A stretch of 64,000 nt of DNA, from positions 62,001 to 126,000 of the forward strand of contig NZ_WSZK01000006.1 in NCBI RefSeq assembly GCF_009791395.1. The letters run 5' to 3'. The notes below the pieces were generated by a model that saw nothing but the letters and a program-made list of their open reading frames with translations, was not told the origin of the DNA and did no database searches. The stretch comes from Halomarina oriensis. Lineage in GTDB: Archaea; Halobacteriota; Halobacteria; Halobacteriales; Haloarculaceae. The position numbers and the translations under genes are program-made. This document shows, in pieces, positions 12,961-24,418 of the stretch (within the stretch, counting starts at the first letter, position 1; each line of letters begins with the position of its first letter).

Positions 12961-15345
12961 CTACGACCCGCTCGCGTTCTCGCTCGCCGCCGACAACTGC
13001 GACCGGTCGACCGAGTAGAGAGTGACGGCGTCGAACCGCCGTTCGACGGTCACGCCGGGGACGCGCTCGAAGGAGACGTCCTCGCCGTACGCCTCACGTT
13101 CTCGCGGGCCGACGTAGACGTAGTCCACCTCGTACTCGGCGAGCAGTCGGGCGCGCTCCTGGGGACTCGCCTCGAACATCGCGTCGGCGTCGCTCGCACG
13201 GGCCGTGTAGGTCTCCGCGCCACGATAGCCGATCTCGTGACGCCACCCCGCGACGGACATGTGGCCGGTGAGACTCGACTCGGGGTTCGTCCACTGGTAG
13301 GCCTGCCAGCCGGGTGCCGCGGCGATGGTGACCTGTCCCGGCTCGTCGTCGAGCCACCCGATGGCGGCCGCCTCGTCGGCGTGGTAGGTCTCGACGAACT
13401 GGGTCGCGTCCAGCGTCGGGTCCTCGGGGACGTACCACTCCGCGGCACCGTAGTCGTAGCGACCCGGTTCGGCCCCGAAGTGGTCGCTCATGGCGAACCC
13501 ACCGTACAGCGCAGTGCTGGCGAGGACGAGGACGGCCAGCACCGTCGCGGGGCGGACGCGCTCGAACATCGCGCGGTCGGCGCTGGCGAACTCCGCGAGC
13601 GACGGGGCGGGTGTCGCTCGGGCGACGAGCGCCGACAGGGCGGCCCCCGCCGCGGGTGCCCACAGCACCCAGACCTGCATGTACGTCTTGAAGACGGTGT
13701 TGTAGCGGTTCGGCCCGGCCTCCTCGCTCACGAAGACGAGTTCGACGAGGAGGACGACGCCGGTGGCGGCGACCAGCAACACCGTCGCAAAACTCGGGTC
13801 GTGGGCGTCCGCGCGGCGGCCACGGAGGACCAGCCACGCCCCGAGGAGGAGGGGGACGAACAGGCCGAACGCGGCGAATCCGAGCGCCCACGCGACGAGA
13901 CTCGTCACCAGCCAGCCGCCGAGTATCGCCGCGACGGTGCCCGACGACAGCGCGACCGTCTCACGGGCCCGCGAGAACAGGAACGGGACGAATATCAGGA
14001 GGTACGCGCCGTGGACGACGAGTAGCCCCCACAGCGCACTGCGCTCTTGGACGAGTTCGATGGACCGACCGCTCGTCGCACCACCCCAGAACGTGAGCGA
14101 GGCGGCGACGGCGACCAGCGCGAGGACGGCCGTGACGAGCAGTGCTCCGCCCGTCCAGCGCGACTCGGTTCGACTCCACGACGGGAACGCTCGACGGGTT
14201 CGGTCGAGCGTCCCCCTGGAGAGCGGCGACGGCTCGTTCCCGCCGAACCGGGTCGAGAACAGCGTCAGCGGGTCCGCGGGCGCGAAGGCGACGGCGAGCC
14301 ACGCCACGCCGAGGAGTGTCGGGAACGACCAGGTGTTGACGACGGCGAGGAAGGCGGTGACGAGCGCGACGAGGACGAGCAGGCCCCGACGTCGCCAGAC
14401 GTGGCGCTCGAACGTCCGGAAGTACGAGTACGCCAGCGTCACGCCCAGCAGCATGAACGGCGTGCTCATCATGTGGGCGTGGAGGTCACCGTTGAGGAAG
14501 GCGAACAGCGGGAACTCGTTGATGGTGCCGGGGATGACGCGACTCGCGGACCAGTAGGTGAACTCCGAGAACGGGGCGGTCAGCGTCCCTTCCCACTCTT
14601 CGAGGGAGACGCCGGCGACACCAGCGCCGGCCGCCAGCACCGACTGGGGGAGCAGTCCCAGGAGTATCTTCACCGGCACTTCGAGGTTGCTGGCGACGCC
14701 GACGAAGAACGCGCCGAACGCGGCGGCCGTCGTCCGGGACCCGCCGAGTCGGTCGCCGAGCGCCCCCGCCAGTCCGTAGGCCGCGGTGACGAGCATCGCG
14801 TAGAACCCCGCGAGCGCGAGGTTGTAGGCGTAGCGCGGCGCGGTGAACGTCAGTTTCGTCACGATTGCGGCGACGAGGTGGCCGCCGTAGTAGTACTGGA
14901 CGCGTTCGCCCGCGAACCACGGGTCGAGCGGTGGGAGGCGGTCGGCCCGAAGCAGCGCCTTCAGCATCGAGAAGTCGAGGAACTTCTCGCCCATCGTGGC
15001 GTGGACGGCGGGGTCGACGGCACGGACGGCGACGAGAAAGAGGAAGGCGAGCGCGAAGACGAGCGCCGTCTCGACGGCGACACGTGGGTCGGGGCGTGCG
15101 CCCGACCGGAGCGCCAGCACGCTCGCTCCGAGGAGGACCGCCAGCGCGAGGAGGATGGTCGGCCAGCCGAAGGCGACCTGACCGACGACCCACGTGACGA
15201 AGCCGAGGACGAACAGGGAGAGCGTGAGAGCGACGCCGGCACCGCGGTCGGCGAGCGGTGGACAGAGGGCGGCGACGACGGGGAGGCCGGCGGCGAACAG
15301 CGCGAGGTACGCCACCAGCCAGAGCAACACGAGCCCGATTTCCAT
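12961..15345 (-). CDS. DUF2298 (YYY-family) polytopic membrane protein
   Basis: 794 residues with more than a dozen hydrophobic helices and a soluble C-terminal domain of about 150 residues. The name-giving YYY at 151-153 lies in ERVQYYYGGH, after DFSMLKALLRADRLPPLDPWFAG, both hallmarks of the Chlor_Arch_YYY family. Such proteins are large membrane enzymes resembling GT-C glycosyltransferases, and their products are unknown. The start at ATG 15345 is chosen because the upstream frame is the antisense of the next gene. It shares an intergenic region with the divergent glycosyltransferase at 15448, which points to an envelope-glycan role. Confidence 0.88.
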   Translation of the reverse strand: MEIGLVLLWLVAYLALFAAGLPVVAALCPPLADRGAGVALTLSLFVLGFVTWVVGQVAFGWPTILLALAVLLGASVLALRSGARPDPRVAVETALVFALAFLFLVAVRAVDPAVHATMGEKFLDFSMLKALLRADRLPPLDPWFAGERVQYYYGGHLVAAIVTKLTFTAPRYAYNLALAGFYAMLVTAAYGLAGALGDRLGGSRTTAAAFGAFFVGVASNLEVPVKILLGLLPQSVLAAGAGVAGVSLEEWEGTLTAPFSEFTYWSASRVIPGTINEFPLFAFLNGDLHAHMMSTPFMLLGVTLAYSYFRTFERHVWRRRGLLVLVALVTAFLAVVNTWSFPTLLGVAWLAVAFAPADPLTLFSTRFGGNEPSPLSRGTLDRTRRAFPSWSRTESRWTGGALLVTAVLALVAVAASLTFWGGATSGRSIELVQERSALWGLLVVHGAYLLIFVPFLFSRARETVALSSGTVAAILGGWLVTSLVAWALGFAAFGLFVPLLLGAWLVLRGRRADAHDPSFATVLLVAATGVVLLVELVFVSEEAGPNRYNTVFKTYMQVWVLWAPAAGAALSALVARATPAPSLAEFASADRAMFERVRPATVLAVLVLASTALYGGFAMSDHFGAEPGRYDYGAAEWYVPEDPTLDATQFVETYHADEAAAIGWLDDEPGQVTIAAAPGWQAYQWTNPESSLTGHMSVAGWRHEIGYRGAETYTARASDADAMFEASPQERARLLAEYEVDYVYVGPREREAYGEDVSFERVPGVTVERRFDAVTLYSVDRSQLSAASENASGS

Positions 15346-15375
15346 GTTCCTGCGACGGGGAGGTGGGGCTAAACC

Positions 15376-15423
15376 TCTTTTGCACTGGCCGACGCGGCCG
15401 AGTGGCATCCCGAACTGTTTTTG
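15376..15423. promoter_or_regulatory. Divergent promoter pair between the YYY gene and glycosyltransferase
   Basis: On the plus strand GTTTTTG at 15417-15423 lies about 28 nt before ATG 15448. On the minus strand an A/T-rich CAAAAG-like box at about 15376-15382 lies about 33 nt before ATG 15345. Both fit archaeal TATA elements and suggest joint control of the two envelope genes. Confidence 0.5.
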
Positions 15424-15447
15424 TCTCGTGGGCGACTCCCCTCCCCT

Positions 15448-16215
15448 ATGTCGTCCGTCGGTCTCGTCGTCCCCGCCTTCCGACCGAACGCCGAGCGACT
15501 CGCATCCTACGTTCGTGCGCTCGACGAGCGGGTGGCACCGGCGGACATCCGTCTCGAACTCGACGACCCCGACAGGGAGACCCGCGACGCACTCCGTGGC
15601 CTCGACGACCTGCCCGTGACGGTCAACGCCGTCCCCTACCGCCGTGGCAAGGGTGCGGCCATCACCAGCGGGTTCGACAGCCTCGACACCGACGTCCTCG
15701 CGTTCGTCGACGCCGACGGCGCGACCCCGCCCCGGAGCGTTGAGGCGGTGCTCGCCCCGCTTCTCGACGGTGACGCCGCCATCGCGGTCGGGTCCCGGCG
15801 ACACCCCGACGCGACGGTCCTGAGCCACCAGACCCGTGCCCGCCGACGGATGGGCGACGCGTTCGCGTGGCTGGCCCGTCGCCTCCTCGACGTCGACCTC
15901 TATGACTTCCAGTGTGGCGCGAAGGCCATCTCCGCCGACGCCTGGGCGAACGTCCGACAGCACCTCTACGAACCCGGCTTCGCGTGGGACGTGGAGTTCG
16001 TCGCGATGAGCCAGGCGCTCGGCTACTCGCTCGTGGAGGTTCCCGTCACCTGGGAGGACCAGCCGAACTCGACGGTCGAACCGCTCGGGGCCGCCTCCGA
16101 GATGGGCCGAGCGCTGTTCGTCGCACGCCATCGGTCGCTCCGCCTCCAGGACCACCGCTTCCACGGCGCGTTCCCGGAGACCACGACCGCTCTCGTCGAC
16201 CGCCAGCGCAGATGA
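15448..16215 (+). CDS. GT2 glycosyltransferase (dolichyl-phosphate sugar synthase-like)
   Basis: 255 residues, soluble GT-A fold without membrane helices. It has the nucleotide-sugar region VGLVVPAFRPN at the N-terminus and the metal-binding DAD at 88-90 in FVDADGATPP. It resembles DPM1-type enzymes that move a sugar from a nucleotide donor to a polyprenyl phosphate. The family's usual second substrate motif (FQCGAKAI, about 153-160) is present. Its stop overlaps the start of a GtrA gene (ATGA), a common pair for making and flipping lipid-linked sugar. Sugar type cannot be read. Confidence 0.88.
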   Translation: MSSVGLVVPAFRPNAERLASYVRALDERVAPADIRLELDDPDRETRDALRGLDDLPVTVNAVPYRRGKGAAITSGFDSLDTDVLAFVDADGATPPRSVEAVLAPLLDGDAAIAVGSRRHPDATVLSHQTRARRRMGDAFAWLARRLLDVDLYDFQCGAKAISADAWANVRQHLYEPGFAWDVEFVAMSQALGYSLVEVPVTWEDQPNSTVEPLGAASEMGRALFVARHRSLRLQDHRFHGAFPETTTALVDRQRR

Positions 16216-16661
16216 ATCGGCAGTTCTCGGCGCTCCTCTCGAGCGTCCGGTTCGGGAAGTTCGTCTCCGTCGGTGCGGTCGGGGCCGTCTTCGACCTCAC
16301 CGTCTCGACGGTGCTCATCGTCGTCTTCGACGTCGCCCCTCCGGTGGCGAAGGTCGGCGGTGCCGAGGTAGCCATCGTCGTCATGTTCTTCATCAACGAA
16401 CACTGGACGTTCGCGGACGAGGGAGCGAGCGGAGTGGTTCCGACGCTCCGCCGGTTGGTGAAGTCGAACCTCGTCCGGAGCGGTGGCGTCGCCGTCCAGT
16501 TCCTCGTCGTCGGTGCGTTCGGGTCGCTCGCGCTCTCGTTCCCGCTGTTCGGTGTCGACCTCTGGGACCTCGTCCCACTCCCCATCGCCATCGGGGTGTC
16601 GATGCTGCTCAACTACGTCCTGGAGAGCCTGGTGACGTGGCGGGTCGCCGCCGAGGCCTGA
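16212..16661 (+). CDS. GtrA-family membrane protein
   Basis: 149 residues with four predicted helices (about 18-38, 46-65, 90-112 and 120-140). The GKFVSVGAVGAVFDL opening and FFINEHWTF loop are typical of GtrA, a family thought to flip polyprenyl-phosphate-linked sugars across the membrane. It overlaps the preceding glycosyltransferase by four bases, so the two are translated together. The acidic loop DEGASG replaces the usual longer loop. The role as flippase for the product of the neighbour is inferred. Confidence 0.87.
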   Translation: MNRQFSALLSSVRFGKFVSVGAVGAVFDLTVSTVLIVVFDVAPPVAKVGGAEVAIVVMFFINEHWTFADEGASGVVPTLRRLVKSNLVRSGGVAVQFLVVGAFGSLALSFPLFGVDLWDLVPLPIAIGVSMLLNYVLESLVTWRVAAEA

Positions 16662-16747
16662 ATCGGGTCGGCCGCTCCCGCGGTATCGCGTGACGTAGCG
16701 GTCGTGGAATCACAACCCTTTACTAGCAGGCTGGGGTACGAGATAGT

Positions 16748-16822
16748 AGCGGGATGGGATAGCCAGGAGATTCCGCCGGGCTCATAACCCGGAGATCGGT
16801 AGTTCAAATCTACCTCCCGCTA
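16748..16822 (+). tRNA. Initiator tRNA-Met (anticodon CAT)
   Basis: A 75-nt cloverleaf can be drawn. The acceptor stem pairs 16748-16754 with 16815-16821 (AGCGGGA with TCCCGCT), with A16822 as discriminator. The anticodon stem CCGGG/CCCGG (16776-16780, 16788-16792) closes loop CTCATAA with CAT at 16783-16785. The T arm is GGTAG-TTCAAAT-CTACC (16798-16814). The A1-U72 end pair and three G-C pairs next to the anticodon loop mark an initiator tRNA. CCA is not encoded. A TATA-like TTTACTA at 16719-16725 precedes it. The last 21 bases are repeated at 16935-16955. Confidence 0.95.
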
Positions 16823-16828
16823 TGTTCT

Positions 16829-16881
16829 GACGACACACGACACGAACGACGAGCGAAGCGAGTCGTGAGCCGTGTGTCGTC
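16829..16881 (+). other. Stem-loop seven bases downstream of the initiator tRNA
   Basis: Bases 16829-16839 (GACGACACACG) and 16871-16881 are perfect 11-base inverted repeats. Inside them ACGAC at 16846-16850 pairs with GTCGT at 16862-16866, leaving a GAGCGAAGCGA loop. It could act in transcription termination or tRNA 3' processing, or be part of a short element bounded by the tRNA 3'-end copies. Confidence 0.55.
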
Positions 16882-16934
16882 GAACTCGTCCGGAGTAGTT
16901 TGAAGCAGGGAGCGAACGCGAGTGAGTGACCGGG

Positions 16935-16955
16935 GTTCAAATCTACCTCCCGCTA
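16935..16955 (+). repeat. Exact 21-base copy of the tRNA-Met 3' end
   Basis: Bases 16935-16955 repeat 16802-16822 exactly, covering the T loop, half the T stem and the 3' acceptor strand of the initiator tRNA. The flanks differ on both sides. A copy of a tRNA 3' end close downstream is what remains when an element integrates at a tRNA and is later lost. The 112 bases between the copies carry no gene. Confidence 0.85.
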
Positions 16956-17194
16956 CTTCTACTGCGAGCAACGACGAGGAGCGAAGCGACGAGTCCCTGA
17001 GTGAGTAAAACCAGCCGAACTACGAACGAGGCTGCGAGCGACGCGAGCAGGGACGGACGACGAGTAGACTCGAAGCAGGCGACGAAGCGAGCGTCCGTGA
17101 GTCTCGGAGCGTGACGCCTCGTCGTCCGTGATAGTTTCACTCCCGTTTCAGTGGCCACAAACTATTCGTTGAGTGGTGAAGTAGCCGAGCAGTC

Positions 17195-17932
17195 ATGGGA
17201 GAGAGCGAGATTCTCGACGGAGCCATCGCCGAACGGCCACGAGAGGTCGCCGAGCATCCGCTGCTCGCGGCCATCTACGACCGTCACGACGCGCTCATCC
17301 GTCGACACGTTCGCTCCGACGGGCGGACGCTCGAACTCGCGTTCGGTCGCCACGCCCACCCCGACGCCGACGTCGGTGTCGAGGCGTTCCACGAGAACTC
17401 GCTCGACGCACGCGACATCGAGGCGACTACCGCCGACGCCCGTTCGCTACCGTTCGCGGACGACGCGTTCGACACCGTCGTCGGGCGGCGGTTCCTCCAC
17501 CACGTTCCGCCGGCCGACCGTCGTGCGATGCTCGCCGAGGCACGGCGGGTTCTCGCACCGGGCGGGCGACTGATACTGCTCGAAGGGACGCCCGGCCTCT
17601 ACCGGCGGTTCACGAAGGCGCTCGCGTTCCGACTCGGTGCGCTCGGGGAGGACACCGACGAGTACGGTCACCTCTCGGTCGACGACGTCAGTGGTCTGCT
17701 CGACGCCGGCGGGTTCGAGACCCTCGAACTCCGCCGACTCGGGTCGCCGTTGATGCCGTTGAGCCTCTCGAAAGGGGAGTGGAGTGCGCGGGCCGTCTCG
17801 CTCTACGAGCGGACGCAGTTCGTCCGCTGGTGGACGCTGGCAGTGGCGACCCCCGCACCCGGCGTCGAGGTGGGAACGCCAGGCTCAGCCGTCGAGAAGC
17901 GCCGTTCGCCGTCGGGACAACGACACGTCTAA
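17195..17932 (+). CDS. Class I methyltransferase-like protein with weak SAM loop
   Basis: 245 residues. DARSLPFADDAFDTVVGRRFLHHV (about 84-107) and RRVLAPGGRLILLEGTP (about 121-137) match post-I and motif III/IV regions of methyltransferase type 11. The first motif, normally rich in Gly, is LELAFGRHAHPDADV at about 46-60 and has only one of the usual glycines. Substrate is unknown. It lies 26 bases before the GT2 gene and may start the operon running to 20920, so a modification of an envelope lipid or sugar is possible. Confidence 0.75.
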   Translation: MGESEILDGAIAERPREVAEHPLLAAIYDRHDALIRRHVRSDGRTLELAFGRHAHPDADVGVEAFHENSLDARDIEATTADARSLPFADDAFDTVVGRRFLHHVPPADRRAMLAEARRVLAPGGRLILLEGTPGLYRRFTKALAFRLGALGEDTDEYGHLSVDDVSGLLDAGGFETLELRRLGSPLMPLSLSKGEWSARAVSLYERTQFVRWWTLAVATPAPGVEVGTPGSAVEKRRSPSGQRHV

Positions 17933-17958
17933 GTGACGCGGGGGCCGTTCGACAACTC

Positions 17959-18633
17959 GTGCGTACCGTCGCCGTCATCCCCGCGTACAACGAGTCGACG
18001 ACCGTCGGGCCCGTCATCGAGGGTGCGCTGGAACACGTCGACCACGTGGTCGTCGTCGACGACGGCTCCGCCGACGACACCGCGGCCGTCGCTCGTCGCC
18101 ACGGAGCGAGCGTCGTCCAGCACGTCATCAACACGGGGGTCGGCGGCGCGGTCAGGACCGGCTATCGCTACGCGATTCGCAACGACTACGACTTCGTCGT
18201 CCAGATCGACGCCGACGGGCAACACGACCCGACGTACATCCCGAAACTCCTCGCCGAGGCCGAGGACAACGACATGGTCATCGCCAGTCGCTACCTCAAC
18301 GACAGCCACGAGGAGTACTCGCAGGTCCGCAACACCGGGATTCGCTTCTTCACCGCGGTCGTCAACGCGCTGGGCGGCATCGACATCACCGACGTGACCA
18401 GCGGCTTTCGGGTGTACCGCGTGTCGAAACTGGAGACCATCCTGCACCACTCCGACCGCCACTGGGCGGTCGAACAGACGCTCGACGCCGCGCGCTCGAA
18501 CCACCGTATCACGGAGGTGTCGGTGAAGATGCCCGTCCGCGACGAGGGCGACTCGCAGTTCACCTTCGACACGTTCGTGCTCTACCCCGCCCGGATGGCC
18601 GACGTCATCCTCCGGGTCCTCATCTTCAGATAA
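17959..18633 (+). CDS. DPM1-like GT2 glycosyltransferase
   Basis: 224 residues, a GT-A glycosyltransferase with VAVIPAYNES at the N-terminus, VVDDGSADDT (about 32-41) and the DAD metal motif at 84-86 in QIDADGQHDP. It lacks C-terminal membrane helices. Such enzymes form dolichyl-phosphate mannose or glucose. GTG 17959 (read as Met, RTVAVIPAYN) is chosen because it directly precedes the conserved start of the fold; the frame continues upstream into the methyltransferase gene. It is followed after nine bases by a DUF2304 gene, a widespread gene pair. Confidence 0.9.
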   Translation: MRTVAVIPAYNESTTVGPVIEGALEHVDHVVVVDDGSADDTAAVARRHGASVVQHVINTGVGGAVRTGYRYAIRNDYDFVVQIDADGQHDPTYIPKLLAEAEDNDMVIASRYLNDSHEEYSQVRNTGIRFFTAVVNALGGIDITDVTSGFRVYRVSKLETILHHSDRHWAVEQTLDAARSNHRITEVSVKMPVRDEGDSQFTFDTFVLYPARMADVILRVLIFR

Positions 18634-18642
18634 CCTCCGACA

Positions 18643-19002
18643 ATGGCAGACTACACACTCGTCAACTTCGCCACGTTCCTGGTGGGCCTCGGCCTCCTGT
18701 TCAACGGCTACTACATCGTCCGGCGGGGCCGCGAGGACATCGCGCTGTTCGTCCTCTCGGCCATCGTCGGCCTCGGACTGGTGTTCGTCGCCCTCCTCCC
18801 GAACGCCTTCCAGAGCGTGGCGAACGTCCTGGGTCTCGAACTCCAGGCTCGTGCCATCCTCGTCGTCTCGAACCTCGTGCTGTTCGTCGTCGTCACCTAC
18901 CTGTTCAACCGTATCGGAAAGCTCTACGACCAGCAGTCGAGGCTGAACGAGGAGCTGAGCCTGCTGAAGAACGACCTCGAAGAACACCGGAACGACCGAT
19001 AG
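18643..19002 (+). CDS. DUF2304 membrane protein
   Basis: 119 residues with three helices (about 5-24, 32-52 and 68-90) and a C-terminal coiled-coil-like tail with regular leucines (LYDQQSRLNEELSLLKNDLEEH). DUF2304 genes commonly sit beside GT2 polyprenyl-phosphate glycosyltransferases, as here. The protein may tether the soluble enzyme at the membrane through its coiled coil; this is inferred from the gene pair and shape. The next gene begins three bases after its stop. Confidence 0.88.
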   Translation: MADYTLVNFATFLVGLGLLFNGYYIVRRGREDIALFVLSAIVGLGLVFVALLPNAFQSVANVLGLELQARAILVVSNLVLFVVVTYLFNRIGKLYDQQSRLNEELSLLKNDLEEHRNDR

Positions 19003-19005
19003 CCG

Positions 19006-19884
19006 ATGGGTGTCGACGACCGGCCTCCCGAAGCGGTCCTCTCGGTGGACTTCGAGGTGTTCGGTCAGACGCCGGCCTACCGGAACGCCGAGGGGACCAC
19101 CGACCGGGAGACGGCCGGGCTCGAACAGGGACGGTTCCTCACGGAGCGGCTGGCGGCCCACGACGCCGACGCGACGTTCTTCACCGTCTCGTCGGTCGCC
19201 GACGAACACCCCGACGAGGTCCGCGCCATCGCCGACGCCGGCCACGAAATCGCCTCGCACACCCACTCGCATCGACTGCTCTCCGACCTCGACCCGGCGG
19301 AGCGTTCGGAGGAACTCGTCCACTCGCGTGCGGTGCTCGAATCGGTCACCAGAGCGTCCGTCGACGGGTTCCGCGCCCCGGCGTTCGACCTCCCCGACGG
19401 GACGCTCGCCGCGCTGGCGGACGCCGGCTACGCCTACGACTCCAGCGTCGCGGCCTCCCGGAAGATTCCGGGCTGGTACGGCGGCGAGGACGACGCGGTC
19501 CGACCGTGTTCGGCCGCCGAGATTCAGTCCGACGCGCCCGAGACGCTCGCCGAACTGCCCGTCGCCGTGATGCCGGGCCTTCGCCTGCCGCTGACGGGGA
19601 CGTGGCTCCGATTCTTCGGCGTTCGCTACACCATCGCCGGGATGCACCTGCTCGCTCGCCGCGGTATCACGCCCGTCCTCTACGTCCACCCGTGGGAACT
19701 CGCGGACCTGCCGGACGTCGACGGCGTCCCGTCGCGGGTGTACGTCCGAACTGGGGCGTGGATGCGACGGGCCGTCGAACGCGTCCTCGCCGAACCGTTC
19801 GAGTTCGTCACCGCCCGGTCCGTCGTGGCCGAGGCGGCCGGCGCACCGCCGCTGACCAGCGTGTCGGACGCCGGAGCGCGGTAG
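19006..19884 (+). CDS. NodB-type polysaccharide deacetylase with HPWE motif
   Basis: 292 residues. Motif 1 is SVDFE (13-17, Asp15), motif 2 is SHTHSH (84-89), and FRAP at 122-125 is motif 3. YVHPWEL (226-232) resembles the C-terminal HPWE signature of deacetylases found in bacterial exopolysaccharide clusters (DUF3473 type). The family removes acetyl groups from N-acetylated sugars. No signal peptide is visible, so it probably acts in the cytoplasm or on a membrane-bound intermediate. Its stop is separated from the flippase-like GTG start by one base. Confidence 0.88.
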   Translation: MGVDDRPPEAVLSVDFEVFGQTPAYRNAEGTTDRETAGLEQGRFLTERLAAHDADATFFTVSSVADEHPDEVRAIADAGHEIASHTHSHRLLSDLDPAERSEELVHSRAVLESVTRASVDGFRAPAFDLPDGTLAALADAGYAYDSSVAASRKIPGWYGGEDDAVRPCSAAEIQSDAPETLAELPVAVMPGLRLPLTGTWLRFFGVRYTIAGMHLLARRGITPVLYVHPWELADLPDVDGVPSRVYVRTGAWMRRAVERVLAEPFEFVTARSVVAEAAGAPPLTSVSDAGAR

Positions 19885-19885
19885 C

Positions 19886-20920
19886 GTGGTCGACGCTCGT
19901 CTCAAGCGCGTCGCCGGCTTCGCCCTCCGCTACGGCATCGGCCTCCTCGCCGTCGCGTGGCTGCTGGGGCAACTCGACTACGACCGACTCCTCGGCGTGC
20001 TGACCGACGTCCCGCCCGAGACGGTCGGGCTGCTGCTCGTCGTCACCGCCGTCGGGTTGGCTGGCCGGTTCTCGACGTGGCACGTCCTGATGAACCGCCT
20101 CGACACGGCTACCTTCCGGCAGGCGGCCAGCACCGACCTCGTGGTCAACTTCATCAACCAGGTGCTCCCCTCCCGGCTGTCGGGCCGGGCGGCCGCGCCC
20201 GTGGTCGTCAGCACCGAGACGGGGATGAGCGGGGGTGATTCGGTCGCGGTCGCCGGCGTCCACACGGGACTGTACGCGGTGCTCTACGGTGTCGTCTCGG
20301 CGGTCGGCGTCCTCGCCGGTGTCGGCCGGTTCCCGGCGGGCGTCCTCCTGTTGCTCGGCCTCTCGACGCTGCTCTACTTCGTCGCGGGGGCGTTCGTCCT
20401 GCTCGTCGGGTCGAACCTGACGGCCGTCGACCGGTTCGTCGCGTCGCTCGCGGGACTGTTCGAGCGTGTGCCGCGAGTCGGCCCCCGACTCGCCGGGACG
20501 GTTCGGTCGCTGCCCGACTTCACCGACAGTTCGGCCGCGGCGTTCCGGACGCTCTCGACCAGTCCGCGTGCGGTGGGGCTGTACGCGCTCGGGTGGGTCG
20601 TGGCGATGGTGCTGACGCCGGGCCTGCGCGTCTGGCTGTTGCTCGACGCGCTCGGTGCGGGGTTCGAGCCTGCGCTCCTCCTGCCGCTCTACCTGCTCGC
20701 GGCGTACAGCGTGACGCTCCTCCCGCTCACGCCGGGCGGTATCGGCGTCACCGAGGCGACGGCGACCGCGGTGTTCGTCGCGCTCGGGGTGCCCGCCGAA
20801 ATCGTCGTCCCGGTCGTCTTCCTCGACCGGTTTCTGAGCGTCTACCTCCCCGCACTGGTCGGGTGGTACCCGTCGCTCCGACTCGACCTGTCGGCGCTCG
20901 CGGCGGACCAGGGTGAGTGA
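19886..20920 (+). CDS. TIGR00374 / lysylphosphatidylglycerol-synthase-TM family membrane protein (AglD-tail/flippase-like)
   Basis: 344 residues with about eight helices. LPSRLSGRAAAPVVV (about 94-108) and LTPGGIGVTEATATAV (about 281-296) are signature regions of the family (usually PGGxGxxE). Related proteins form the membrane half of archaeal AglD and of lipid-linked sugar flippases. GTG 19886 is the only suitable start and follows the deacetylase stop by one base, showing co-translation. A role in moving or using a lipid-linked sugar is likely; the substrate is unknown. Confidence 0.85.
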   Translation: MVDARLKRVAGFALRYGIGLLAVAWLLGQLDYDRLLGVLTDVPPETVGLLLVVTAVGLAGRFSTWHVLMNRLDTATFRQAASTDLVVNFINQVLPSRLSGRAAAPVVVSTETGMSGGDSVAVAGVHTGLYAVLYGVVSAVGVLAGVGRFPAGVLLLLGLSTLLYFVAGAFVLLVGSNLTAVDRFVASLAGLFERVPRVGPRLAGTVRSLPDFTDSSAAAFRTLSTSPRAVGLYALGWVVAMVLTPGLRVWLLLDALGAGFEPALLLPLYLLAAYSVTLLPLTPGGIGVTEATATAVFVALGVPAEIVVPVVFLDRFLSVYLPALVGWYPSLRLDLSALAADQGE

Positions 20921-20967
20921 CGGGAGACGGAGACGACGGTCCTCGACGGGTGCACCCGGAGAGGAGA

Positions 20968-20976
20968 AAGTATTTC
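20968..20976 (+). promoter_or_regulatory. TATA-like box before the phosphatase-superfamily gene
   Basis: AAGTATTTC is centred about 29 nt before ATG 21001, giving a leaderless transcript and suggesting that 21001 is a separate unit from the operon ending at 20920. Confidence 0.5.
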
Positions 20977-21000
20977 CACGGGCCTCGGTTCGGGTAGACC

Positions 21001-22545
21001 ATGACGCGGACGTTCGTCGTCGGCCTCGACGGGGCCTCCTGGCGACTGCTCGACCAGTGGCTCGACGCCGGCGACCTGCCGAACCTCGCCGCCCTCCGGG
21101 AGTCCGGTGCGTGGGCCGCCCACCGAAGCTGTCTCCCGCCGGTGACCTTCCCGAACTGGAAGTGCTACTCCGCCGGGAAGGACCCCGGCGGCTTCGGCGT
21201 CTTCTGGTTCGAACACGTCGACCTGGAGGCGGGGGAGATAACGGTCGCCAACGGCGGCGACTTCCGGACCGTCGAACTGTGGGACTACCTCAACGACGAC
21301 GGCAAGTCGACGGGCGTCGTCAACATGCCGACGATGTACCCGCCACGCGACATCGACGGACCGGTCGTCTGTGGCGGTCCAGACGCCGTCTCCGGGGAGT
21401 ACCGCTCCATCGACTCGGGGTACACCTCGCCGGCTGACCTCGCGGACTACCTCGAACGGGAGTTCGACTACGAGGTCCACCCGAACCCGCTGCTCTCCTC
21501 GAACACCGAACGCGGTGCGGAGGTCGACGCTATCCTCGACGTGCTGGACTCCCGCTTCGAGGTGGCGCTCGACCTGTTCGAGCGCGACGAACTCGACTTC
21601 GTGCACGTCACGCTGTTCTACCTCAACGTCCTGCACCACTTCTTCTGGGACGACGAACCGGTGTACCGAGCGTGGCAACTCGTCGACGAGTGGCTGGGCG
21701 AACTGCGCGAACTGGAGGACACGACGCTCGTGTTGATGTCCGATCACGGCGCGGCCCCCACGACGACGGAGTTCTACGTCAACGAGTGGCTGGCCGAGAA
21801 CGGCTATCAGGCTCGTGAACGCACCGTCGAGGACTACCTCACGCCGCTCGGACTGACCCGCGAGAACGCGCTCTCGCTCGCCAAGCGTGCCGGTATCGTC
21901 GATACGCTCGCCGAGGTGGTCCCCCAGCGTCTCCAGGAACTCGTCCCGCAGAGCGCGGGCCTCAAACGCGGTCGAAAGCTCGAAGCCATCGATCTGGAGC
22001 GAACGAAGGCCGTCGCCAGCGGGCAAGGGCCTATCTACGTCAACCCACGTTTCGACGTGGAGGCGGTCCGCGAGGAACTCCTCGCGGACTTGCGCGAGGT
22101 CAGCGACGCCGAGGGGCCGCTGTTCACCGCCGTCCACCGCGGCGAGGACGTCTATCACGGTCCGTTCGTCGAGGAGGGCCCGGAGGTGGTCGTCGACATG
22201 CGTCCCGGCGTCCACGTCAACGACGGCGTCGGCGGTGGGAACGTCACGACGGCCCCGGACCGCTGGGCCGCCGAGAACACGCCCCACGGCATCTTCGTGG
22301 CGAACGGGCCGAACGTCGCCCCCGTCGGCGAACTCGACGACATCTCCATCCTCGACCTCGCACCGACCATCCTCGCGGGGATGGGCAGCGACGTGCCGAC
22401 GGACATGCGCGGGGAGGTGCTGGACGTCTTCGAGGAGTCCCCCGACGTCGGCGAACGCGAACCGATCCCGTTCCGGGCGCGCGAGCGCGTCGGCGACGGC
22501 GACGAGGTGGCCGACCGCCTGAAGCAGTTGGGGTACATGGAGTGA
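21001..22545 (+). CDS. Alkaline-phosphatase-superfamily phosphodiesterase/transferase
   Basis: 514 residues, of the type I phosphodiesterase/nucleotide pyrophosphatase group. Visible parts of the site are Asp10 (VVGLDGASW), the likely nucleophile Thr49 (PPVTFPNW), and Asp248-His249 (MSDHG). In the region FYLNVLHHFFW (206-216) an Asn (209) stands where relatives usually have a metal-binding Asp four residues before the conserved His213. No signal peptide or membrane anchor is obvious. Its place between flippase and GT-C genes suggests a substrate in envelope glycan or phospholipid metabolism; which one cannot be read. Confidence 0.82.
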   Translation: MTRTFVVGLDGASWRLLDQWLDAGDLPNLAALRESGAWAAHRSCLPPVTFPNWKCYSAGKDPGGFGVFWFEHVDLEAGEITVANGGDFRTVELWDYLNDDGKSTGVVNMPTMYPPRDIDGPVVCGGPDAVSGEYRSIDSGYTSPADLADYLEREFDYEVHPNPLLSSNTERGAEVDAILDVLDSRFEVALDLFERDELDFVHVTLFYLNVLHHFFWDDEPVYRAWQLVDEWLGELRELEDTTLVLMSDHGAAPTTTEFYVNEWLAENGYQARERTVEDYLTPLGLTRENALSLAKRAGIVDTLAEVVPQRLQELVPQSAGLKRGRKLEAIDLERTKAVASGQGPIYVNPRFDVEAVREELLADLREVSDAEGPLFTAVHRGEDVYHGPFVEEGPEVVVDMRPGVHVNDGVGGGNVTTAPDRWAAENTPHGIFVANGPNVAPVGELDDISILDLAPTILAGMGSDVPTDMRGEVLDVFEESPDVGEREPIPFRARERVGDGDEVADRLKQLGYME

Positions 22546-22597
22546 CCGCGCGTGCACCCGTCGGCGGTCCCACGTCGCGTCGCGCCGAACCACGGCC

Positions 22598-22603
22598 CTT
22601 ATC
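22598..22603 (+). promoter_or_regulatory. TATA-like box before the GT-C gene
   Basis: CTTATC, 25-30 nt before ATG 22628, fits a leaderless promoter. Confidence 0.45.
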
Positions 22604-22627
22604 AGGCGCTTCGCTGAGGGTCTGACA

Positions 22628-24418
22628 ATGCGCGTTCCCTCCCCGGTGGCCCGGGTTCGTCGGCGCGTCCGGGCGGACCTCGACGCCGACCCGTACCTCG
22701 GCTACATCCTCCTGCTGACGCTCCTGCTCGGCGCGTTCTGGTTCTGGCACCTCGCGCCGAACTTCGCCACGCGCGACGAGATGGACCGCATCCTCGATCC
22801 GCTGGTCGCGTTCGGGACGGTCTACGCCGACCCGAGTCTCGACTCGTTGCGCGAGGGCATCACCTGGGGTCGGGTCCCGTTCGGCGCGACGCTCTACCTC
22901 TACGCGCTGCTCCTGATTCCCGTCGTCCTCGGCGCGGCCCTCACCGGGAACCTCGACCTGTTCGAGGCGTTCGCCACCCCCGGCCGGGCAGCCAGCGCCT
23001 TCGGGACCTACGAGGTCTGGCACGCGACCCCCGAGTGGGTGTGGTGGGTCGCCGTCTCGATGGTTCGGCTGTTCAACGTCGCGTTCGCCGTCGGGTCGGT
23101 CTACCTCACCTACCGCATCGCCACGACCATCCGCGACCGGGCGGCGGGCCGCCTCGCGGCGGTCCTGCTGACGTTCTCGTGGGGCTTTCTCACCCTCGCT
23201 CACGAGGGCGGCGAGGACGTGCCCGCACTCTTTTTCGTCCTGCTCGCGCTCTACCTCCTGCTCGGCTACGTGCGGGAGGGGACCGACTGGCGGTTCTACG
23301 GCGCGAGCATCGCCGGGGGCGTCGCCATCGCCTTCAAACTCACCGCCTTCCCCGTCATCGTCACCATCGTCGCGGCGTACCTCCTGCGTGCGCGGGAGGC
23401 CGACGACCCGACGGCGGCGCTGTTCCAGCCGAGACTCGTCGTCGCCGGGGGTCTGTTCGGGTTCGGCGTCATCATGCTCGGCTTCCCGACGTTCGTCGTC
23501 GCCGGGTTCGACCCCATCGTCGCTCGTATCTTCGAGGGCTCCGAGGCGCGGGCCGGGTGGGCGACCGGTCCGGACGCCCCCATCTGGTGGTGGTTCCTCC
23601 GTGGCTACTTCAGCGGTCTCAGCCTCCCGCTGTTCGCCGGGGCGGTCGCTGGCGTCCTCGCCGGCCTCTATCAGGTGGTCGACGACCGCGAGGAGTCCAG
23701 TGCCGTCCTGCTCGTCCTCGTCGCACTGGCGACGTACGTGGTGATGTTCTCGCAGTGGCACGACTTCCGGGTCCACCACCTGCTGCCGACGTTTCCGCTG
23801 TTGATGGTGCTCGTCGCGCTCATGCTGAACCGACTGCTCCGGGAGACGCCCCGACTGGGCACCGCGTTCACCGTCTTCTTGCTCCTCACGAGCGGCACGT
23901 ACGCAGTCGTCGGCGTCGGCGGCTACGCCTCGATGCCCCGCGACGAGGCCGTCGACTGGTACGCCGCCAACGCCGACGAGAACGACACCGTCGAACTGTA
24001 TCGCGTCCACATGCAGGACGCCGCCGTCCCGCACTGGCTGGACGTCAACCACCCCTACGAACCGCGAAGCGAGCACGTCGCCTGTCCGGAGTACGTCGAG
24101 ATAACGTATCGAGACCTGCTCTACCTCGCGGACGGGACGTACTACCGGAACGGCGAGGCGGAGAAGGAGTACGTTCGCGGCATGCTGGACGGCGAGTACG
24201 GCTACGAAGTCGTCGCCGAGTTCGGCCCGCGGCCGCCGAACTTCGTCCCACAGCGGGCCTCGCCGGGGTCGGTCGTCGACCTGATTCCGTACGGAGTCGT
24301 GCCACACACCGACCAGTACGCGGACGAACAGGAACTCGAACCGAACCAGTACACCGCGATTCTCGCACGGAACGGGTCGGGAACGTGTGACGCCGACCGC
24401 GAGATACCGTTCTACTGA
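22628..24418 (+). CDS. GT-C (family 39-like) membrane glycosyltransferase
   Basis: 596 residues with about eleven to twelve helices up to residue 440 and a soluble C-terminal domain of about 155 residues facing the outside. The first loop carries Asp50-Glu51 in NFATRDEMDR, the usual place of the catalytic acidic pair in protein-mannosyltransferase and ArnT-like enzymes. Such enzymes use polyprenyl-phosphate sugars outside the membrane, matching the products of the DPM1-like neighbours. The acceptor (protein, lipid or polymer) is unknown. It is the last gene of the same-direction run before the minus-strand DJ-1 gene. Confidence 0.85.
   Translation: MRVPSPVARVRRRVRADLDADPYLGYILLLTLLLGAFWFWHLAPNFATRDEMDRILDPLVAFGTVYADPSLDSLREGITWGRVPFGATLYLYALLLIPVVLGAALTGNLDLFEAFATPGRAASAFGTYEVWHATPEWVWWVAVSMVRLFNVAFAVGSVYLTYRIATTIRDRAAGRLAAVLLTFSWGFLTLAHEGGEDVPALFFVLLALYLLLGYVREGTDWRFYGASIAGGVAIAFKLTAFPVIVTIVAAYLLRAREADDPTAALFQPRLVVAGGLFGFGVIMLGFPTFVVAGFDPIVARIFEGSEARAGWATGPDAPIWWWFLRGYFSGLSLPLFAGAVAGVLAGLYQVVDDREESSAVLLVLVALATYVVMFSQWHDFRVHHLLPTFPLLMVLVALMLNRLLRETPRLGTAFTVFLLLTSGTYAVVGVGGYASMPRDEAVDWYAANADENDTVELYRVHMQDAAVPHWLDVNHPYEPRSEHVACPEYVEITYRDLLYLADGTYYRNGEAEKEYVRGMLDGEYGYEVVAEFGPRPPNFVPQRASPGSVVDLIPYGVVPHTDQYADEQELEPNQYTAILARNGSGTCDADREIPFY

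Follow-up and report, generated by a model that had tools for sequence, protein, structure and literature searches.

The genome of Halomarina oriensis (GCF_009791395.1) carries, at positions 12961-24418 of a 64,000-nucleotide stretch of contig NZ_WSZK01000006.1 (hereafter the window), ten protein-coding genes on both sides of an initiator tRNA gene. Here, we describe six of these genes as a travelling cassette that behaves as one pathway. They encode a family 2 glycosyltransferase (GT2b), a small DUF2304 membrane protein, a NodB-type deacetylase, an LPG_synthase_TM/TIGR00374 membrane protein (LPG_TM), an alkaline-phosphatase-superfamily phosphodiesterase (AP) and a GT-C transferase, and are sometimes joined by a class-I methyltransferase (MT). 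In general terms this core set probably uses dolichyl phosphate (DolP) as the carrier on which an amino sugar reaches the cell surface. The explanation that best fits the whole, which we regard as reasonably probable, is a lipid-linked amino-sugar system with sulfoquinovosamine as its most likely sugar and the S-layer N-glycan as its most likely acceptor. These functions are proposed on the basis of sequence, gene linkage, genomic distribution and a single modelled fold.

A travelling module beside an older tRNA block

Protein families were assigned with Pfam and NCBIfam profile searches, and tRNAs with ARAGORN and Rfam. All ten families named in a preliminary description of the window were recovered where it had placed them. 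The genes downstream of the tRNA, all on the plus strand, are the following:

17195..17932, + strand: class-I methyltransferase (MT), optional module member (PF08241, 48.6 bits)
17962..18633, + strand: GT2b, predicted polyprenyl(dolichyl)-phosphate glycosyltransferase (PF00535, 90 bits; DADGQH motif)
18643..19002, + strand: DUF2304 small membrane protein, putative partner of GT2b (PF10066, 57.0 bits, cut-off 25.5)
19006..19884, + strand: predicted NodB-type deacetylase with DUF3473 (PF01522, Polysacc_deac_1, 76 bits; PF11959, 58 bits)
19886..20920, + strand: LPG_TM, proposed DolP-sugar flippase (PF03706, 111 bits; TIGR00374 above cut-off)
21001..22545, + strand: AP, predicted phosphodiesterase of the alkaline phosphatase superfamily (Phosphodiest PF01663, 120 bits; TFPNW motif)
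22628..24418, + strand: predicted GT-C transferase (PMT_2; PF13231, 40.6 bits; invariant D50 in the first external loop)

Co-occurrence was followed from several anchor genes in 117 genomes of the order. NodB orthologues are separated by a clean gap (E < 1e-98, next matches > 1e-33) and occur in 16 of these genomes, spread over six families. LPG_TM is found in exactly the same 16 genomes, as is AP (at least 62% identity, next best 48%), which lies about 110 kb from the rest of the module in three Haloarcula and yet co-occurs with it. The GT-C orthologue is present in 14 of the 16 and in none of the other genomes. Module genomes resemble one another by descent, and the sample is not independent of kinship. 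A separate scan of public genomes yielded 47 named module loci, where the genes near NodB encode LPG_TM (47 loci), GT2b (42), GT-C (42), AP (37) and a free DUF2304 (27). MT stands near NodB in only two or three of these loci, which belong to Halomarina and one metagenome-assembled genome (MAG); outside the order, a homologue of 41% identity is found within the module at locus L248 (see below). The flanks of the module vary between genera and one copy resides on a 616-kb plasmid of Haladaptatus; the module therefore moves as a unit. In H. oriensis, the distances from stop to next start, read off the sequence from MT to GT-C, are 29, 9, 3, 1, 80, and 82 bp, a spacing that is operon-like. ARAGORN also called a tRNA-Leu(GAG) at the junction of the NodB and LPG_TM genes (19848-19940, minus strand), which lacks Rfam support, overlaps two conserved genes and is probably a false positive. 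A search with PADLOC returned a weak methyltransferase match as its sole result and was set aside.

The remaining features, which lie outside the module, belong to an older block:

12961..15348, - strand: YYY/DUF2298 membrane protein (DUF2298/YYY, 447 bits; TIGR03662, 588 bits)
15451..16215, + strand: GT2a, a GT2-family protein by Pfam
16212..16661, + strand: GtrA (PF04138, 68.9 bits)
16747-16823, + strand: initiator tRNA-Met(CAT) (ARAGORN and Rfam)

YYY and GT2a are oriented divergently, and the YYY gene probably begins around 15348 rather than at 16164. The tRNA-Met(CAT), already described as an initiator, is recognizable as such by the GGG/CCC pairs of its anticodon stem. YYY-GT2a-GtrA-tRNA-iMet is an ancestral haloarchaeal block that is found without the module in many genomes. 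Relatives of GT2a occur in 63 of the 117 genomes, and among the 30 best GT2a loci GtrA adjoins in 29, YYY in 26, and tRNA-Met in most, with PfpI or HPRT often following. Conversely, YYY, GT2a, and GtrA are near NodB in only 2-3 of the 47 module loci. In six relatives without the module at this site the gap from the tRNA to PfpI measures 324-636 bp, whereas in H. oriensis it is filled by the 7.6-kb module, which was therefore inserted beside the older block. The block itself (12961-16823), which roughly half of the order possesses, looks like a separate system of a GT2, GtrA, and a membrane protein.

The preliminary description had united all ten genes in one envelope-glycan pathway around the initiator tRNA. 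The ten do stand together in H. oriensis, in Halomarina rubra (the nearest named NodB, 84% identical, in an identical gene order) and in one MAG, but the block is conserved without the module, the module occurs without the block, and relatives show the site unfilled, so that a pathway of all ten is hardly credible. The survey of co-occurrence that had been suggested as a check splits the set: the module genes are linked, while YYY, GT2a, and GtrA scatter independently. The idea of a single pathway, in which a sugar is loaded, flipped, transferred, and deacetylated by a lipid-linked route, consequently survives for the downstream genes and is lost for these three.

The 3' end of tRNA-iMet is repeated exactly, over 21 bp, 133 bp downstream of the gene (16802-16822 and 16935-16955). 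Integration guided by the tRNA was considered as the origin of the island and rejected, as the copy is also found in genomes without the module there and is lacking at the far end. The repeat is therefore an older trace, possibly of integration.

Predicted activities of the module proteins

GT2b has no predicted transmembrane (TM) helix and is expected to be soluble. Its best match in the PDB is ArnC (E 1.8e-10), followed by the dolichyl-phosphate mannose synthase (DPMS) of P. furiosus, and together with the PF00535 domain and the DADGQH motif this marks it as a predicted GT2 that loads polyprenyl phosphate. The nearest curated models are PpgS (NF058614; 95 bits in H. oriensis and 124 bits in the fusion sub-type described below, cut-off 370) and AglJ (85 bits, also below cut-off), and with the ArnC model NF007986 GT2b reaches 57 bits (cut-off 529). 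AepG (HAH_1206), a synthase of dolichyl-phosphate glucuronic acid, was rejected as the orthologue of GT2b; it is a different gene, about 350 kb away in Haloarcula hispanica, and its product has C-terminal TM helices.

A second sub-type of the module has no free DUF2304 gene. Its GT2 of about 360 residues carries three N-terminal TM helices, and this N-terminal part is DUF2304 by Pfam (43.4 and 38.8 bits, cut-off 25.5). Because the two are fused in one lineage and encoded by adjacent genes in another, they would form one complex, and DUF2304 is likely the membrane partner of polyprenyl-phosphate GT2 enzymes. Loci of the fusion sub-type (L076, L089, L091, and others) contain an extra sulfatase-like protein of the AP superfamily, whose gene often separates NodB from LPG_TM or adjoins that of the GT2.

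In NodB, residues D15, H85, H89, R123, and H228 are invariant in 14 orthologues, in agreement with the catalytic and metal-binding positions of carbohydrate esterase family 4 (CE4), and the protein matches CE4 structures. The HPWE motif noticed earlier (H228-P-W-E231) is likewise invariant in 14/14 orthologues, and motif 1 reads SVDFE in place of TFDDG. Neither a signal peptide nor a TM helix is predicted; as the active-site residues are kept, NodB should be a cytoplasmic enzyme. LPG_TM is proposed as a candidate flippase. AP is, as predicted from its sequence, a soluble cytoplasmic phosphodiesterase resembling nucleotide pyrophosphatases/phosphodiesterases (NPPs), with TFPNW at the position of the NPP-type nucleophile. 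Its structural model (predicted local distance difference test, pLDDT, 62) weakly resembles phosphonoacetate hydrolase and NPPs and supports no more than the superfamily assignment. Elsewhere, the H. oriensis genome encodes a second AP paralogue (G000:C1:12018-13526) with 47% identity.

The AlphaFold model of the GT-C protein (pLDDT 86; predicted template modelling score 0.91) matches ALG12 (Z 28.8) and ArnT (Z 26.6) over nearly its full length, and the modelled GT-C fold is thus that of transferases using DolP- and undecaprenyl-phosphate-linked sugars. Two to three tandem GT-C copies are found beside the module in loci L052 and L053, which may reflect several acceptors or linkages.

The proposed route, its sugar, and the alternatives

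The presence of a NodB deacetylase in the module points to an amino sugar as the substrate. In the scheme that we propose, a homologue of UDP-sulfoquinovose synthase (SQD1) would convert UDP-N-acetylglucosamine (UDP-GlcNAc) into UDP-6-sulfo-N-acetylquinovosamine (UDP-6-sulfo-QuiNAc), and GT2b, with DUF2304 as its membrane anchor, would transfer the N-acetylated amino sugar from UDP to DolP on the cytoplasmic side. NodB would then strip the acetyl group from the lipid-linked sugar in the cytoplasm and leave a free amine, after which LPG_TM would flip the sugar-loaded lipid and the GT-C enzyme would pass the sugar to a surface acceptor. AP might dispose of nucleotide-linked or lipid-linked sugars that are misloaded or left unused, which is a guess of low confidence. 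Whether these genes amount to a complete archaeal route, from fructose-6-phosphate through UDP-GlcNAc, sulfonation by SQD1, loading of DolP, deacetylation, and flipping to transfer by GT-C, in which a cytoplasmic phosphodiesterase would be a new and constant component, we judge to be evenly balanced.

Several observations link the module to SQD1. The homologue, which matches plant SQD1 with E 3e-73, is encoded in 15 of the 16 module genomes and in 27 of the 101 others (Fisher 3.8e-7, kinship uncorrected). In many haloarchaea (L218-L237) its gene and those of two epimerases of the short-chain dehydrogenase/reductase (SDR) family make up a fixed cassette, often accompanied by a TrmB regulator and with or without the module, which the cassette directly adjoins in Salinarchaeum, Haladaptatus, and Halovenus. 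In L248, from a 1.4-Mb genome outside the order (G154), genes for GlmS (780 bits), a GlmU-like enzyme, the SQD1 homologue (401 bits), and an epimerase share one stretch with the whole module (NodB, GT2, DUF2304, LPG_TM, MT, AP, and GT-C), a second phosphodiesterase, and a TrmB regulator. The GlmS of L248 (15616-18918) contains an intein that bears a LAGLIDADG domain. In L063, a neighbouring glutamine amidotransferase was discarded as a GlmS candidate, being PurF-like by its N-terminal sequence. The H. hispanica genome, recognized in our sample by 7 of 9 primer cores from PMC9943897, has GT2b-DUF2304-NodB-LPG_TM and GT-C (locus L238) and the SQD1 homologue, and the membranes of this species are reported to contain dolichol-phosphate sulfoquinovosamine (DolP-QuiNS), which serves S-layer glycosylation (PMC9943897). 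Judged by its spacing from HAH_1206, L238 should fall around HAH_1570-1580, close to the cluster HAH_1567-1573 given in PMC9943897. Calculated from the published m/z of 1093.7 for C60 DolP-HexA, DolP-QuiNS would appear at about 1142.7 and its N-acetyl form at about 1184.7. On the strength of the co-occurrence and adjacency of SQD1, the L248 block, and DolP-QuiNS in a species that bears the module, sulfoquinovosamine is the sugar we favor, with somewhat better than even confidence. No gene that makes or moves DolP-QuiNS was named in the literature searched, which did not cover the study of H. hispanica Agl22/Agl23 (Lu et al., 2020), and a search for haloarchaeal NodB and DUF2298 genes found no relevant paper.

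A number of points weigh against this interpretation. The SQD1-epimerase cassette is also present in genomes without the module, among them 8 of 8 module-less Haloarcula examined; the cassette must therefore serve another purpose and does not by itself identify the sugar. SQD1 is nearly universal within Haloarcula and was dropped as an exact marker of the module. In one module genome (G085, Halococcus-like) no SQD1 homologue was detected. Shared descent among the module genomes makes the Fisher value optimistic. The SQD1 homologues score about 330-400 bits (NF041015: 348 in the H. oriensis genome, 401 in L248), below the curated cut-off of 575, so that they are homologous to SQD1 but cannot be assigned as the identical enzyme, and their substrate may differ. 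Furthermore, the scheme leaves the role of AP unexplained and the AP model is poor, the flippase step leans on the annotation of TIGR00374, which is flippase-like only, and the biochemical steps, the direction of flipping, the sugar, and the acceptor are all inferred; what the analysis shows is the gene content, the linkage, the exact co-occurrence, the DUF2304-GT2 fusion, the GT-C fold, and the conserved NodB residues.

The same scheme could instead deliver plain glucosamine or galactosamine to a surface polymer, lipid, or glycan, with SQD1 merely sharing glycan-rich genomes. This would agree with PpgS, a synthase of polyprenyl-phosphate N-acetylgalactosamine, as the nearest model of GT2b, with GlmS genes near the module in Halopenitus and Salinarchaeum as well, and with the frequency of SQD1 in genomes that lack the module; we consider it rather unlikely in view of the near-constant presence of SQD1 in module genomes, its physical linkage with the module, seen in several lineages and again in L248, and the reported occurrence of DolP-QuiNS in a module-bearing species (PMC9943897). 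Less likely again, and in our view improbable, is that the genes modify a preassembled lipid-linked glycan or an extracellular polysaccharide, with NodB acting on an oligosaccharide as is thought for the DUF3473 deacetylases of XrtA/EpsH-type systems. In favor of this, NodB contains DUF3473, and among NCBIfam models it comes closest to the polysaccharide deacetylase of the XrtA system, with a score of 118 bits that stays below cut-off. Against it, the module lacks conserved genes for a polymerase or for EpsH-type export, and the partners of NodB are enzymes of monosaccharide loading and GT-C transfer.

The S-layer N-glycan as acceptor of the sulfoquinovosamine is a tentative proposal, to which we give slightly less than even weight. 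The preliminary description took the lack of an oligosaccharyltransferase as an argument against N-glycosylation. The locus indeed has none, but the argument fails, because the genome encodes AglB elsewhere (G000:C18, 90.5 bits). Within 10 kb of the module AglB is found only in Halosimplex-type loci (Pfam-confirmed in L076). The sulfoquinovosamine route would provide a short list of candidate genes for DolP-QuiNS in H. hispanica, a genetically tractable archaeon, and an archaeal case of sugar deacetylation on a lipid carrier. From the fusion, DUF2304 gains a likely role as the partner of polyprenyl-phosphate GT2 enzymes, and the TIGR00374 proteins gain a candidate activity.

Comparison with known systems

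The closest parallel in logic is ArnC-ArnD-ArnE/F-ArnT, which adds 4-amino-arabinose to lipid A: a GT2 loads the carrier, a NodB-family enzyme N-deacylates the sugar, and flipping precedes transfer by a GT-C enzyme. ArnD deformylates its undecaprenyl-phosphate-linked sugar. The likeness extends to structure, ArnC and ArnT being among the best matches of GT2b and the GT-C model, but the module has no Arn orthologue, as the low score of GT2b against the ArnC model illustrates. It also differs in its additional DUF2304 and AP proteins, in a flippase candidate of another family, and in an archaeal host without lipid A.

Small membrane partners of GT2 enzymes are known from three further systems. 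In GacI-GacJ-GacK-GacL and CsbB-GtcA-YfhO, a three-helix membrane protein aids a polyprenyl-phosphate GT2, followed by a flippase and a GT-C enzyme, with GacJ as the small membrane partner of GacI (PMC8035078). These systems have no deacetylase or phosphodiesterase, and their flippase is Wzx or GtrA, not LPG_TM. We take GacJ to be a DUF2304 protein. PpgS-Rv3632-Rv3779, which places galactosamine on mycobacterial arabinogalactan, likewise combines a GT2 and a small membrane partner with deacetylation and GT-C transfer (PMC9671496). GT2b is not PpgS, given its score far under the cut-off. No deacetylase or flippase gene has been identified in the mycobacterial pathway (PMC9671496), whereas the archaeal module itself carries candidates for both. 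The haloarchaeal Agl N-glycosylation pathway and AepG share with the module the use of DolP-linked sugars and GT2 enzymes, but GT2b falls far below the cut-offs of the AglJ and DolP-hexose-transferase models, and AglB is near the module in the Halosimplex group only. LPG_TM as a candidate flippase and the constant cytoplasmic phosphodiesterase are parts undescribed in the Arn and PpgS systems, and the module, if our reading is true, would follow the logic of Arn in archaea, with a sulfonated sugar as its substrate.

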